Part shown: positions 35,066-53,505 of the stretch, piece by piece | Layout of the letters: each line of letters begins with the position of its first letter | Numbering within the stretch: position 1 is the stretch's first letter | DNA from: Rhizobium album | GTDB lineage: Bacteria; Pseudomonadota; Alphaproteobacteria; Rhizobiales; Rhizobiaceae | Assembly: GCF_003122325.1 (NCBI RefSeq) | Contig: NZ_QFBC01000008.1 | Location: 124,001-188,000 of the forward strand | Direction: 5' to 3' | Length of the DNA: 64,000 nucleotides | Notes under the pieces: generated by a model | What the model saw: the letters and a program-made list of their open reading frames with translations, nothing else | Told to the model about the DNA's origin: nothing | Database searches by the model: none | Program-made: the position numbers and the translations under genes

Positions 35066-35290
35066 TTAGAGGTTCCTTGATTCGAGAGAATTGAAGGCTA
35101 AGACGGGAATACGGTGCGCGGCTTCCATATGGAAACCGCTATGCCGGAGCTGCCCCCGCAACTGTAAGCGGCGAGCGTGCGTTCCATCAAGCCACTGGCG
35201 CCGGAGGGTGCTGGGAAGGCGGAATGCATGTGACGACCTGCAAGCCAGGAGACCTGCCTCGAGCAAAACGTCCACGGGCGGGGTGTCCGG
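35066..35290 (+). ncRNA. Cobalamin riboswitch upstream of nrdHIEF
   Basis: Classical B12 element. Visible parts in order: GAGGTTCC at 35068-35075, the core AGCTGCCCCCGCAACTGTAA (from 35149), GCCACTGG, GGGAAGGCGG and the closing GACCTGCAAGCCAGGAGACC (35236-35255). It lies about 230 bp before nrdH, with an expression platform including the 21-nt block 35268-35288. Cobalamin binding is expected to lower expression, so the class Ib reductase would be made when B12 is scarce. Confidence 0.95.
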
Positions 35291-35338
35291 ATGGCGAACG
35301 GGTGTGTTGCGGAATGAGCCCGCGGCCATCGTTCTCCG

Positions 35339-35366
35339 TTCACCCTGCAAAACACTTCGGGGTGAA
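35339..35366 (+). other. Leader hairpin between riboswitch and nrdH
   Basis: TTCACCC / GGGTGAA inverted repeat with a 14-nt loop, about 150 bp before the nrdH start. Could be part of the expression platform; no T-tract follows. Confidence 0.4.
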
Positions 35367-35517
35367 GTCCATGTCCAGCTTTTCCGATCCGCATCGCCGC
35401 GAATAGCGATACTCCATGCCGGCAAACGATCCGGCTGCTTCCTTATCGATCCTTTCAGGCGGACATCGGCGGATGTCCGCGCCTTATCGCATGTCCATAT
35501 CATATACGAGGCCATTC

Positions 35518-35739
35518 ATGACCATCACCGTCTACAGCAAACCCGCCTGCGTCCAGTGCACCGCAACGACCCGCGCGCTCGATCGTCAAGGCGTCGAATA
35601 TACCATCATCGATGTTTCCGCCGACTCCGCGGCCTTCGAACTCGTTCAGGGCCTCGGCTACCGCCAGGTTCCCGTCGTCATCGCCGGCGACCGGCACTGG
35701 GCCGGCTTCCGCCCCGACATGATCGGCGCGCTGGCGTGA
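35518..35739 (+). CDS. nrdH: Glutaredoxin-like NrdH redoxin
   Basis: 73-residue thioredoxin-fold protein with the redox motif CVQC (NrdH type), the cis-proline segment QVPVVI and the C-terminal GFRPDMI typical of the family. It supplies electrons to the class Ib reductase NrdE. ATG 35518 has GAGG upstream. First gene of nrdHIEF behind a cobalamin riboswitch. Confidence 0.95.
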   Translation: MTITVYSKPACVQCTATTRALDRQGVEYTIIDVSADSAAFELVQGLGYRQVPVVIAGDRHWAGFRPDMIGALA

Positions 35740-35751
35740 CCGGCCGTCGCG

Positions 35752-36168
35752 ATGGGACTGATCGTCTATTTTTCCAGCCGTTCTGAAAACACCCATCGTT
35801 TTGTCGGCAGGACCGGCCTGGATTCAAAGCGGATTGCCGCTGGTCCTGCAAAGGATGATCTGCGGGTCCGCGAACCTTTCGTCCTGATCGTCCCGACCTA
35901 TGCGGGCGAGGGCGGCAAGGGAGCCGTTCCCAAACAGGTTATCCGTTTTCTCAACGACGCGGATAACCGCTCGAACCTTCGCGGCGTCATCGCCGCGGGC
36001 AACAGCAATTTCGGCGCGACCTTCGGGATCGCCGGCGACATCATCTCGGCGAAATGCCGGGTGCCATACCTCTACCGGTTCGAACTGCTCGGAACCGACG
36101 AGGATGTCGCCAATGTCAGGCACGGATTGGAACGATTTTGGACACGCTCACGCTCGAACGACCTTTGA
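35752..36168 (+). CDS. nrdI: Flavodoxin-like NrdI
   Basis: 138 residues with the NrdI pattern: [14 protein letters not shown] binding FMN phosphate, VPTYAGEGG and [14 protein letters not shown]. It delivers the oxidant (superoxide) that assembles the dimanganese-tyrosyl radical cofactor of NrdF. 12 bp after nrdH. Its 3' end overlaps the probable start of nrdE by about 31 bp. Confidence 0.95.
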
Positions 36169-51460: not shown

Positions 51461-51499
51461 CATGTCGCGCAGAGGTGCGCAGCGGTTTTGCGCGACATG
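51461..51499. repeat. Intergenic inverted repeat (rhizobial palindromic type)
   Basis: Perfect 11-bp arms CATGTCGCGCA / TGCGCGACATG separated by 17 bp, directly after gbcB. It resembles short palindromic repeats scattered in Rhizobium intergenic DNA. A degenerate relative is at 31190-31215 and another possible one near 48650-48700. Confidence 0.65.
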
Positions 51500-51623
51500 T
51501 AGAAACAAGAGCTGAAGCGTGAGCGCAAAGCTGAAAGATCGCGACGCGCTTTAGACGATCGTGGATTGGCGGCCGGACGGGGAGGTCCGGTCATCATGGA
51601 CTCAAGAGAAGGAGGAGACGTGC

Positions 51624-52814
51624 ATGAGCAAGAACAGAGGCGTGGTCTACATGCGACCGGGCAAGGTCGAGGTGAAGGACATCGACGATCCCCGGCTGGA
51701 GGCGCCGGACGGGCGCCGCATCGAGCATGGCGTCATCCTGAAGGTGATATCGACCAATATATGCGGCTCCGACCAGCACATGGTGCGCGGCCGTACCACG
51801 GCGATGCCGGGCCTGGTGCTCGGGCACGAGATCACCGGCGAGGTGATCGAGAAAGGCATCGACGTCGAAATGCTCGAGGTCGGTGACATGGTGTCCGTGC
51901 CGTTCAACGTCGCATGCGGGCGCTGCCGTTGCTGCAAGTCGCAGGACACCGGCGTTTGCCTGACGGTCAACCCGTCACGCGCAGGCGGCGCCTACGGTTA
52001 TGTCGACATGGGCGGCTGGATCGGCGGGCAGGCACGATACGTGACCATCCCCTACGCCGACTTCAACCTGCTGAAATTCCCGGATCGCGACAAGGCCATG
52101 GCGAAGATCCGCGACTTGACGATGCTGTCCGACATCCTGCCCACCGGCTTCCATGGCGCCGTGCGTGCCGGGGTCGGGGTCGGGTCGACCGTTTATGTCG
52201 CAGGTGCCGGGCCGGTGGGACTTGCTGCGGCCGCATCCGCCCGCATCCTCGGCGCCGCCGTCGTCATGATCGGCGATTTCAACAAGGATCGCCTGGCGCA
52301 TGCCGCAAAGGTCGGGTTCGAACCGATCGACCTGTCGAAGAGCGACAGGCTGGGTGACATGATCGCCCAGGTGGTCGGCGTGCCGGAAGTGGACAGCGCC
52401 ATCGATGCCGTCGGTTTCGAGGCGCGTGGCCATGCCGGCGGCGAGCAGCCGGCGATCGTGCTGAACCAGATGATGGAAATCACCCGTGCCGCCGGCTCCA
52501 TCGGCATTCCGGGACTTTATGTGACGGAGGACCCCGGCGCGGTCGACGATGCCGCCAGGCATGGCAGCCTGTCGCTGCGTTTCGGTCTCGGCTGGGCCAA
52601 GGCGCAGTCTTTCCATACAGGACAGACACCGGTGCTGAAGTACAATCGTCAGCTCATGCAGGCAATTCTGCATGACCGGCTACCGATCGCCGATATCGTC
52701 AACGCCAAGGTGATTTCGCTGGAGGATGCCGCGGAAGGCTACGAAAGCTTCGACCAGGGTGCTGCGACAAAATTTGTCCTCGATCCGCACGGCGACCTGA
52801 TCAAGGCCGCATGA
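51624..52814 (+). CDS. fdhA: Glutathione-independent formaldehyde dehydrogenase
   Basis: 396-residue zinc alcohol dehydrogenase-family enzyme very similar in motifs to Pseudomonas putida PFDH: NICGSDQHMVRGRTTA, VPFNVACGRCRCC (structural zinc), GGAYGYVDMG, VYVAGAGPVGLAAAASA and FGLGWAKAQSFHTGQTPV. It oxidises formaldehyde to formate with tightly bound NAD. Behind gbcAB, it should remove the formaldehyde released by betaine demethylation. Strong AAGGAGGAGA site before ATG 51624. About 165 bp with a palindromic repeat separate it from gbcB, so it may also have its own promoter. Confidence 0.95.
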   Translation: MSKNRGVVYMRPGKVEVKDIDDPRLEAPDGRRIEHGVILKVISTNICGSDQHMVRGRTTAMPGLVLGHEITGEVIEKGIDVEMLEVGDMVSVPFNVACGRCRCCKSQDTGVCLTVNPSRAGGAYGYVDMGGWIGGQARYVTIPYADFNLLKFPDRDKAMAKIRDLTMLSDILPTGFHGAVRAGVGVGSTVYVAGAGPVGLAAAASARILGAAVVMIGDFNKDRLAHAAKVGFEPIDLSKSDRLGDMIAQVVGVPEVDSAIDAVGFEARGHAGGEQPAIVLNQMMEITRAAGSIGIPGLYVTEDPGAVDDAARHGSLSLRFGLGWAKAQSFHTGQTPVLKYNRQLMQAILHDRLPIADIVNAKVISLEDAAEGYESFDQGAATKFVLDPHGDLIKAA

Positions 52815-52865
52815 GCGAAGATTGCGGAGGTGGCGGTTTCCGCTACCTCCGTCCGGCAATTCCAT

Positions 52866-53213
52866 TCAGGCTTGAAGCCTTGTGCGTCTCTTCTCGCCTC
52901 TTGCCCTGTTGCGGGGCGCCACCGGGACTGTCGCCTGGCGAAACAATTCGCGCAAGCGGCCCGGTTCCTGACCTGGAGGTGTTGCCGCATCAAGCCGCGC
53001 CAGCTCGACACGGGCACGCGCCAGCACATCTGCTCCCTCTGGAAGCGAAACCAGCCAGGCAAAAAATATCGATTCGGCGCGGTCGCCTTGCAAGTCGCCG
53101 ATAGGGGCTCCTTCCTGCGCATTGTCCGCTGGATTTACCGTTTGACGGGCCGGTACAGACAGGGCGTCGGCCAGGTTCCGGTCGTCGAGATTTTTGCAGG
53201 GTAAAGATGTCAC
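52866..53213 (-). CDS. Small unrecognised protein behind a cobalamin riboswitch
   Basis: 115 residues from a GTG (AAAGGCG upstream). The middle part, AESIFFAWLVSLPEGADVLA followed by a charged amphipathic helix and RLRELFRQAT, looks like genuine helical protein, whereas the N-terminal 40 residues are polar and the C-terminal tail is strongly basic. No signal peptide, metal motif or known domain recognised. It is the only sensible frame downstream of the minus-strand riboswitch at 53.3-53.5 kb, about 100 bp from it, and convergent with fdhA. The start is uncertain; a TTG at residue 42 is possible. Confidence 0.5.
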   Translation of the reverse strand: MTSLPCKNLDDRNLADALSVPARQTVNPADNAQEGAPIGDLQGDRAESIFFAWLVSLPEGADVLARARVELARLDAATPPGQEPGRLRELFRQATVPVAPRNRARGEKRRTRLQA

Positions 53214-53306
53214 GTATCGCCTTTGCCATCATAGGACGGTGAGCGTAAAGGTGACGCACGTGCCGGGATCGCATCTGCAACCAAAGCCCAGCTCTGCACC
53301 CCTCGT

Positions 53307-53505
53307 CGCCCACCGCGATCAGAGTCATAGCTTGTGGCTGGTTTCCGGGCTCAGGAGCCGGTCCTTGCAGACCTGCCCGACCTCCTTCCCAGGCGTTTCG
53401 CCCAGTGGCTGCAGTCGGACTTAAGCTCCAATACCGTTGCGGGGGCAGCGCCGGCATTCCACCGGCTTCCCAATTATCCGCCTGATGATCAAGCGGCACC
53501 AAAAG
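53307..53505 (-). ncRNA. Cobalamin riboswitch facing a small ORF
   Basis: Read on the minus strand: GGTGCC (about 53500), GGATAATTGGGAAGCCGGT, core GCGCTGCCCCCGCAACGGTA (53432-53451), GCCACTGGGCG, CTGGGAAGGAGG and AGCCCGGAAACCAGCC (53336-53351). All conserved parts are present, so it is not a decayed copy. Very close in sequence to the gbcA riboswitch, including the 16-nt block 53307-53322. The next gene on this strand is the 115-residue ORF. Confidence 0.92.

Follow-up and report, generated by a model that had tools for sequence, protein, structure and literature searches.

Cobalamin riboswitches before B12-free enzymes in Rhizobium album: a probable back-up island for B12 shortage that includes betaine demethylation

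Why should four cobalamin riboswitches stand within 18.5 kb of a bacterial genome, and what do the genes behind them have in common? The question is raised by a stretch of 64,000 nucleotides of Rhizobium album (assembly GCF_003122325.1, contig NZ_QFBC01000008.1, positions 124,001 to 188,000 of the forward strand), hereafter the window, to which coordinates refer unless another contig or locus is named. The four switches precede the class Ib ribonucleotide reductase operon nrdHIEF, the methionine synthase gene metE, a betaine demethylase operon of the gbcAB type with the formaldehyde dehydrogenase gene fdhA, and an open reading frame (ORF) of 115 amino acids. We consider it probable that the region is a back-up island for B12 shortage, whose switches would shut down B12-free enzymes when B12 is plentiful, in the case of gbcAB through translation, with the chemistry of betaine breakdown changing with the B12 supply. 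Moreover, the switch before gbcA is common in Rhizobiales and tracks the corrinoid enzyme MtgB. A broader proposal can be built on this: across Rhizobiales, a dedicated translation-type cobalamin riboswitch would choose between corrinoid methyl transfer (B12 present, methyl group kept) and oxygenolytic demethylation (yielding formaldehyde), would be lost along with the corrinoid enzyme, and bypass operons would repeatedly have been assembled from non-homologous parts into B12-shortage islands. To this proposal we give somewhat more credence than doubt.

Switches, enzymes and their B12-dependent counterparts

All four elements match the Rfam cobalamin riboswitch model RF00174 over model positions 1-189 with 103-128 bits, the gathering score being 31.5 bits. 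These matches bear out the preliminary description of the region, which had placed complete cobalamin riboswitches at 35.1 (+), 43.0 (-), 48.8 (+) and 53.4 kb (-). A strict motif search had recovered two of the four; it was relaxed and later replaced by a covariance model. The neighbouring genes named in the same description (nrdHIEF, metE, prpDCB, gbcAB-fdhA and a small ORF) are likewise placed as claimed according to family matches. The switches and the genes behind them are as follows.

35053-35275, +, cobalamin riboswitch 1, nrdHIEF leader (RF00174, 114.2 bits)
35416-35739, +, nrdH (TIGR02194, above cut-off; match starts at ORF residue 37)
35752-36168, +, nrdI (TIGR00333, above cut-off)
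36054-38291, +, nrdE, class Ib alpha subunit (TIGR04170, 1272 bits, cut-off 750; match starts at ORF residue 46)
38288-39289, +, nrdF, class Ib beta subunit (TIGR04171, 480 bits, cut-off 355)
40533-42857, -, metE, B12-independent methionine synthase (TIGR01371, 1102 bits, cut-off 930)
42964-43175, -, cobalamin riboswitch 2, metE leader (RF00174, 128.5 bits)
48777-48977, +, cobalamin riboswitch 3 (gbc-type), leader of the betaine demethylase operon (RF00174, 102.8 bits)
49068-49086, +, hairpin covering the Shine-Dalgarno region of gbcA, likely the translational expression platform (motif and folding)
49090-50337, +, gbcA-type Rieske quaternary-ammonium demethylase, oxygenase subunit (NF058607, 520.8 bits, below the cut-off of 670; 56% identity to the 3vca chain)
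50268-51458, +, gbcB-type reductase subunit (NF058606, 373.1 bits, below the cut-off of 500; match starts at ORF residue 47)
51561-52814, +, fdhA, glutathione-independent formaldehyde dehydrogenase (TIGR02819, 718 bits, cut-off 637)
52866-53213, -, 115-amino-acid protein, displaced member of the gbc operon (own hidden Markov model; homologs after gbcB in relatives)
53319-53518, -, cobalamin riboswitch 4 (gbc-type), leader of the 115-amino-acid ORF (RF00174, 105.5 bits)

The four proteins of the class Ib reductase system, all above their family cut-offs, are encoded in a single operon. The region had initially been read as one of cobalamin independence, a view that profile searches of the own genome (6.86 Mb, 62 contigs, window on C61) do not sustain. 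They found an NrdJ-type reductase above cut-off on contig C56, MetH on C2, a methylmalonyl-CoA mutase-family (acyl-CoA mutase) enzyme above cut-off on C45 and CobN on C23, within a switch-led cobW-cobN region. Adjoining that region is an MtgBC-type cluster comprising an MTTB-family protein (MtgB; PF06253, 775 bits, above the Pfam cut-off), an MtgC-like corrinoid protein (NF047996, 214 bits, below the cut-off of 370), an MtgD-like methyltransferase, a RamA/AcsV-like activase, a betaine-homocysteine methyltransferase (Bmt) and an OpuA-type betaine transporter. Since the genome holds NrdJ, MetH, the mutase, CobN and an MtgBC-like system, the island is better read as a back-up set for times of B12 shortage. 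Ribonucleotide reductase, methionine synthase and betaine demethylation, the three switch-controlled systems, each have a B12-dependent counterpart in the genome, the one for betaine presumably being the MtgBC-type system.

The back-up reading builds on observed elements and genes, on their co-occurrence with MtgB, on clusters that recur and on the hairpin, whereas we infer the ligand, the direction of regulation, the substrate and the benefit of clustering. It would work as follows. When adenosylcobalamin is plentiful, the four switches would turn off the class Ib reductase and MetE as well as GbcAB, FdhA and the small protein associated with Gbc; in their place the cell would rely on enzymes from other parts of its genome, namely NrdJ, MetH and the corrinoid betaine methyltransferase of the MtgBC type. 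At low B12 the B12-free enzymes would be produced. At gbcAB, ligand binding would favour a hairpin in which the ribosome-binding site is buried. The methyl group of betaine would be transferred to tetrahydrofolate when B12 is present, whereas under shortage betaine would be demethylated oxygenolytically and the formaldehyde released would be removed by FdhA.

Between the switch-led operons lies prpDCB, without a riboswitch of its own. PrpC and PrpB of this methylcitrate cycle reach their cut-offs and PrpD falls just short; the cycle would round off the set for propionyl-CoA, probably under the RamB-like regulator encoded beside it. Of the four B12-bypass pathways counted earlier, nrdHIEF, metE and gbcAB-fdhA stand behind switches and prpDCB does not; the fourth switch leads a displaced gene of the betaine operon and no pathway of its own. 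The remaining genes of the region are listed below.

39195-40340, +, AraC-type regulator, GbdR-like (NF052371, 208 bits, below the cut-off of 480; PF12833)
43329-44750, -, RamB-like regulator, so called because it stays below the cut-off (NF038139, 604 bits, cut-off 700)
44879-46507, +, prpD, 2-methylcitrate dehydratase (NF042438, 901 bits, just below the cut-off of 950)
46504-47694, +, prpC, 2-methylcitrate synthase (NF009006, 704 bits, cut-off 550)
47704-48621, +, prpB, methylisocitrate lyase (TIGR02317, 433 bits, cut-off 354)

Upstream of the island, the window additionally encodes an MTTB-family paralog (9301-10827, -; TIGR02369, 342 bits, below the cut-off of 525), about 38% identical to the MtgB on C23 and adjoining an oligopeptide-type binding protein.

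The switch before gbcA and its link to MtgB

The betaine branch was followed in two sets of genomes that partly overlap; a class-wide sample of 251 genomes was too sparse in close gbcA orthologs (20 matches) and was not used thereafter. Leaders were scanned with a covariance model built from 32 switches. Set 1 consists of 80 named gbcA loci, in 64 of which a switch precedes the gene. MtgB was searched in the genomes of 48 of these loci and in the own genome (49 genomes, with L086 left out), and the switch stands at gbcA in 40 of 40 MtgB-positive genomes versus one of nine MtgB-negative ones (L066, 70 bits). For set 2, 161 genomes were drawn evenly over the family and all searched for MtgB at E <= 1e-60; 65 have gbcA at E <= 1e-150. 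Stretches of at most 20 kb, taken for 64 gbcA loci, were scanned alongside the window, and a gbc-type switch lies upstream of gbcA in 43 of the 64 fetched loci. MtgB occurs with the switch in 42 cases and without it in 3, while MtgB-negative genomes have it in 2 cases and lack it in 18 (Fisher p 4e-11).

To allow for descent, the GbcA proteins of the two sets were placed on one tree, in which 107 distinct rows remain of 112 after five near-identical ones were merged. It holds 78 MtgB-positive rows with the switch and one without, and 3 MtgB-negative rows with it and 25 without. Eight independent pairs lie on supported branches of this tree, of which seven to eight agree and none oppose (sign test p 0.008-0.016); L172 (genome G379), a contrary row with MtgB and no switch, forms a long branch and was omitted here, but it does enter the table for set 2. 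Furthermore, MtgC is absent from all 29 MtgB-negative genomes and present in all 12 MtgB-positive genomes searched for it, three of those 12 alignments crossing a stop codon. CobN is kept in 24 of the 29 MtgB-negative genomes (15/20 in set 2 and 9/9 in set 1; the CobN coordinates of G026 and G306 are the same, so that these two probably represent a single genome), and cobalamin switches, one to five each, remain in all 20 such genomes of set 2. Therefore, missing B12 sensing does not explain the loss of the gbcA switch, nor, in most cases, does missing B12 synthesis; a loss through lost synthesis, considered as a candidate explanation, is unsupported.

Several observations weigh against a tight link. 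The set-2 tree alone offers four independent pairs on supported branches, of which 3.4 on average agree and none oppose, and its sign test is not significant (p 0.125). MtgB-negative genomes have fewer switches overall than MtgB-positive ones. Moreover, MtgB occurs without a switch at gbcA in G379 and in G390 and G457, the latter two of one genus. Conversely, a weak switch (56-61 Rfam bits) without MtgB is seen in L066 and in the pair G383 and G452, again from a single genus, as might be expected of decaying elements. The switch of G355, an MtgB-positive genome, is also rather weak (69 Rfam bits).

The gbcA switch most likely controls translation, turning it off with cobalamin. Just before the start of gbcA, 45 of 94 non-redundant switch-bearing leaders and none of the 30 switch-less ones have a hairpin of the form GTYCTT-loop-AGGAC, with the ribosome-binding site in its 3' arm. 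The Shine-Dalgarno hexamer is also less accessible in the switch-bearing leaders, with a median unpaired value of 0.17 compared with 0.34 when the upstream sequence is shuffled; in the switch-less leaders it is not lowered (0.50 versus 0.49). With kinship uncorrected, the two groups differ at p 3e-8 on raw values and at 8e-6 after subtraction of the shuffled value. A terminator as expression platform is unsupported, as terminator-like sites show no excess (14 versus 16.5 in shuffles). Against translational control, it must be said that the hairpin is confined to only those 45 of the 94 leaders and that accessibility is not lowered in the window's own leader (0.46 versus 0.42 shuffled), where the program took the hexamer AATGAG as Shine-Dalgarno sequence. 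Folding of the whole gbcA leader gave a z-score of -1.21, which is not significant.

The aptamers themselves fall into two groups in an alignment inspected by eye: 17 gbc-type aptamers combine CAACGGT with GCCCGGA, whereas 15 others combine CAACTGT with GCCAGGA. This difference would fit a compensatory pair change, which may go back to a single old event.

The second gbc-type switch of the island, the fourth in order, leads the 115-amino-acid ORF, which has no Pfam or NCBIfam match. A spurious ORF is unlikely, as homologs sit in the gbc operons of relatives: of 108 switch-bearing loci, 24 have one immediately behind gbcB and in the same orientation, versus 0 of 37 switch-less ones (own model, E <= 1e-4). 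Both in the window and in G394 (L154), a genome of the same genus, the gene is detached and preceded by a separate gbc-type switch; in G394, fdhA likewise lies behind a gbc-type switch. The protein is thus a displaced member of the gbc operon, and the fourth switch would extend the gbc regulon.

The best family matches of oxygenase and reductase are GbcA and GbcB, both under the NCBIfam cut-offs, and the solved structure nearest to the oxygenase is 3vca, which we take to be Stc2, the stachydrine demethylase. The 3vca protein itself reaches 496 bits against the GbcA model, again below 670. Because the GbcA cut-off is missed and identity to 3vca is 56%, the enzyme is named a GbcA/Stc2-type demethylase. 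Its substrate is likely glycine betaine; the same two facts count against this and would suit proline betaine. An oxygenase for proline betaine (stachydrine), with a switch that governs the use of plant betaines and an MtgB correlation that merely reflects shared ancestral genome background, is a serious but doubtful alternative. The switch-bearing genes share 68-86% identity with the window protein and, in the rows listed, 55-60% with the 3vca protein, so that Stc2, for all its likeness to the window oxygenase, stands farther from it than they do. Additionally, the row nearest to 3vca (L172, 64%) has no switch, and switch and MtgB were gained or lost together on independent branches, which speaks against this alternative. 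The own genome encodes a second GbcA-like Rieske oxygenase on C62 (L183:6483-7736, -), about 41% identical to that of the window (411 bits, below 670).

Some relatives place gbcAB beside metH, namely L154, where a full-length MetH was confirmed, and L119, L015 and L021 (ORFs of 1269-1277 amino acids), which suggests that the methionine cycle and betaine demethylation are tied by position. Next to gbcAB, these relatives gave three matches in a row, Bmt-, MtgD- and MtgC-like, which were considered as a second corrinoid system; this was rejected, the matches being covered by one full-length MetH in L154 and by the single ORF in each of the other three.

Clustering of switches in the genome and in relatives

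Nine cobalamin riboswitches lie above the cut-off in the own genome, with one more match below it. Of the nine, four belong to the island, a pair lies within 2.4 kb on C20, and contigs C4, C1 and C23 have one apiece. Uniform random placing would put four of nine within 18.5 kb with a probability of about 1e-5. This figure should not be over-read, as relatives have pairs of switches a few kb apart at other places, as judged from coordinates. The pair on C20 belongs to a second cluster (L101, positions 2075-11337 of C20:1-20000) with MesX, a MesD-like synthase and a flavin reductase. One of its switches stands directly before a YciA-like thioesterase gene (87.6 bits, below the YciA cut-off), the other before a second nrdHIEF with 83% DNA identity to the window copy. 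A phage-type integrase is encoded nearby, at 908-2026.

In the 65 gbcA genomes of set 2, 15 further switches lie near gbcA (about 10 kb on each side, contig permitting), compared with 0.9 expected from each genome's own switch density as obtained by a search with stricter filters, kinship uncorrected. Behind them stand nrdAB-type genes (5), metE (4, own included), the small ORF (2), and one each of mesXD, a btuF-like gene, a TonB receptor and a ferredoxin-like gene. Ten of the 15 lead B12-independent enzymes (nrdAB-type, metE, mesXD); of the five nrdAB-type cases, the one in L111 was named by family and the other four by a 29-30% match to NrdE. These 15 switches fall in nine genomes, and the remaining 56 of the 65 have no second switch within 10 kb of gbcA, which weighs against clustering as a general feature.

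The clearest parallel is G356 (L111, C38:121768-141767), where switch-led nrdAB, gbcAB and mesXD and a switch before a ferredoxin-like protein lie within about 15-16 kb. This cluster appears to fill the same roles as the island, with a class Ia in place of the class Ib reductase and MesXD in place of MetE. In the sister species G394, 14 kb of contig C1 hold switch-led fdhA, nrdHIEF and metE together with prpDCB and ramB; the order differs from that of the island, there is one more switch, and gbcAB lies elsewhere. The third genome of the genus has a switch-led gbcAB and gave no long match to the island's nrdHIEF, metE or prpDCB. Synteny, proposed earlier as a check on the island, is thus retained in one of these relatives, albeit reordered, and not in the other. 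Likewise, the earlier view of an assembled module is upheld in so far as the arrangement is not chance and a sister species keeps the set. Switch clustering is recurrent, but not the rule.

The 56 genomes without a second switch near gbcA, the missing match in the third genome and the integrase near the C20 cluster would all suit a neighbourhood due to chance or hitch-hiking, in which separate B12-controlled operons were acquired together on one mobile segment. We hold this to be unlikely. It would not account for the surplus of switches near gbcA (with the caveat on kinship given above), for the recurrence in other genera of non-homologous enzymes with the same roles (class Ia nrdAB instead of a class Ib reductase and, in G356, mesXD instead of metE), or for a sister species that has reordered the genes and still holds the set together.

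Two further observations concern relatives. On contig C1 of G394, at about 65-66.5 kb (L178:9090-10547), a further cobalamin switch precedes an ORF of 135 amino acids without a Pfam match and a DUF6925 protein, possibly a new B12-regulated function. In G332 and G417 (L116 and L146), switch-led nrdAB-type genes, gbcAB and metE are neighbours, and neither genome has a CobN above the cut-off; these may be B12 auxotrophs, to which islands of this kind would be of the greatest importance.

Meaning and comparison with known systems

Switch-led gbcAB might instead serve B12 supply: low B12 would call forth betaine demethylation to provide glycine, from which 5-aminolevulinate is made, together with one-carbon units for methylating the corrin ring. 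This would account for the feeding of betaine in industrial B12 fermentations and agrees with its description as an additive in production by S. meliloti and P. denitrificans (PMC8123684, PMC5948670) and with the MtgBC system and cob genes being neighbours on C23. Yet this reading is quite improbable, since only 3 of the 29 MtgB-negative genomes, most of them with CobN, have the switch before gbcA, and G332 has switch-led gbcAB and MtgB without a CobN match.

Under the back-up reading, a catabolic step of relevance to plants and osmolytes would join the short list of B12-switched isozymes, and rhizobia would have a reason for keeping two routes of betaine demethylation. The B12 supply is predicted to decide whether betaine methyl groups are conserved or burned, which would matter for industrial B12 production where betaine is fed and for the B12 economy of rhizobia in soil and on roots. 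Owing to the near one-to-one link between switch and MtgB, the idea is directly testable, and the recurrent bypass clusters are a tangible example on which to ask why regulatory RNAs form clusters with their genes.

A search of open-licence papers found none that connects a cobalamin switch with gbcAB. For S. meliloti 1021, three chromosomal cobalamin switches are listed, one of them before SMc00982 (PMC2573895); should this gene be gbcA, the element as such has been on record since 2008. We believe three points to be new: the betaine branch and its tie to MtgB, the small gene displaced from its operon, and the repeated assembly of bypass clusters.

Among known systems, the closest on the corrinoid side is the MtgBCDE pathway of betaine demethylation and methionine synthesis in S. 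meliloti, whose genes are co-located with reductive modules and a cobalamin operon (Mausz et al. 2025, PMC12478193). The genome studied here likewise has MTTB, MtgC-like, MtgD-like, Bmt and activase genes beside cob genes. In its passages on GbcAB, that paper treats the enzyme as an alternative pathway without a tie to B12 control, and the word riboswitch occurs there only in a reference title. MesD/MesX, an oxygen-dependent, B12-free methionine synthase, is represented by MesX and the MesD-like synthase on the own C20 and lies behind a cobalamin switch in G356; the main text of the paper on it does not use the word riboswitch (PMC7857596). On the regulatory side, a B12 element before a B12-free isozyme whose B12-dependent counterpart is present has been described for NrdDG with NrdJ in delta-proteobacteria, where methionine synthase and ribonucleotide reductase are cited from earlier work (PMC545781), and cobalamin-riboswitch control has been tested for a MetE/MetH pair (PMC9600662). 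The same arrangement is seen here, with the B12-free isozyme behind a switch and the B12-dependent one present. Compared with this known isozyme control, however, the arrangement in R. album takes in a catabolic oxygenase, putatively for betaine demethylation, as well as a small accessory protein, and it brings several such operons together in a cluster.

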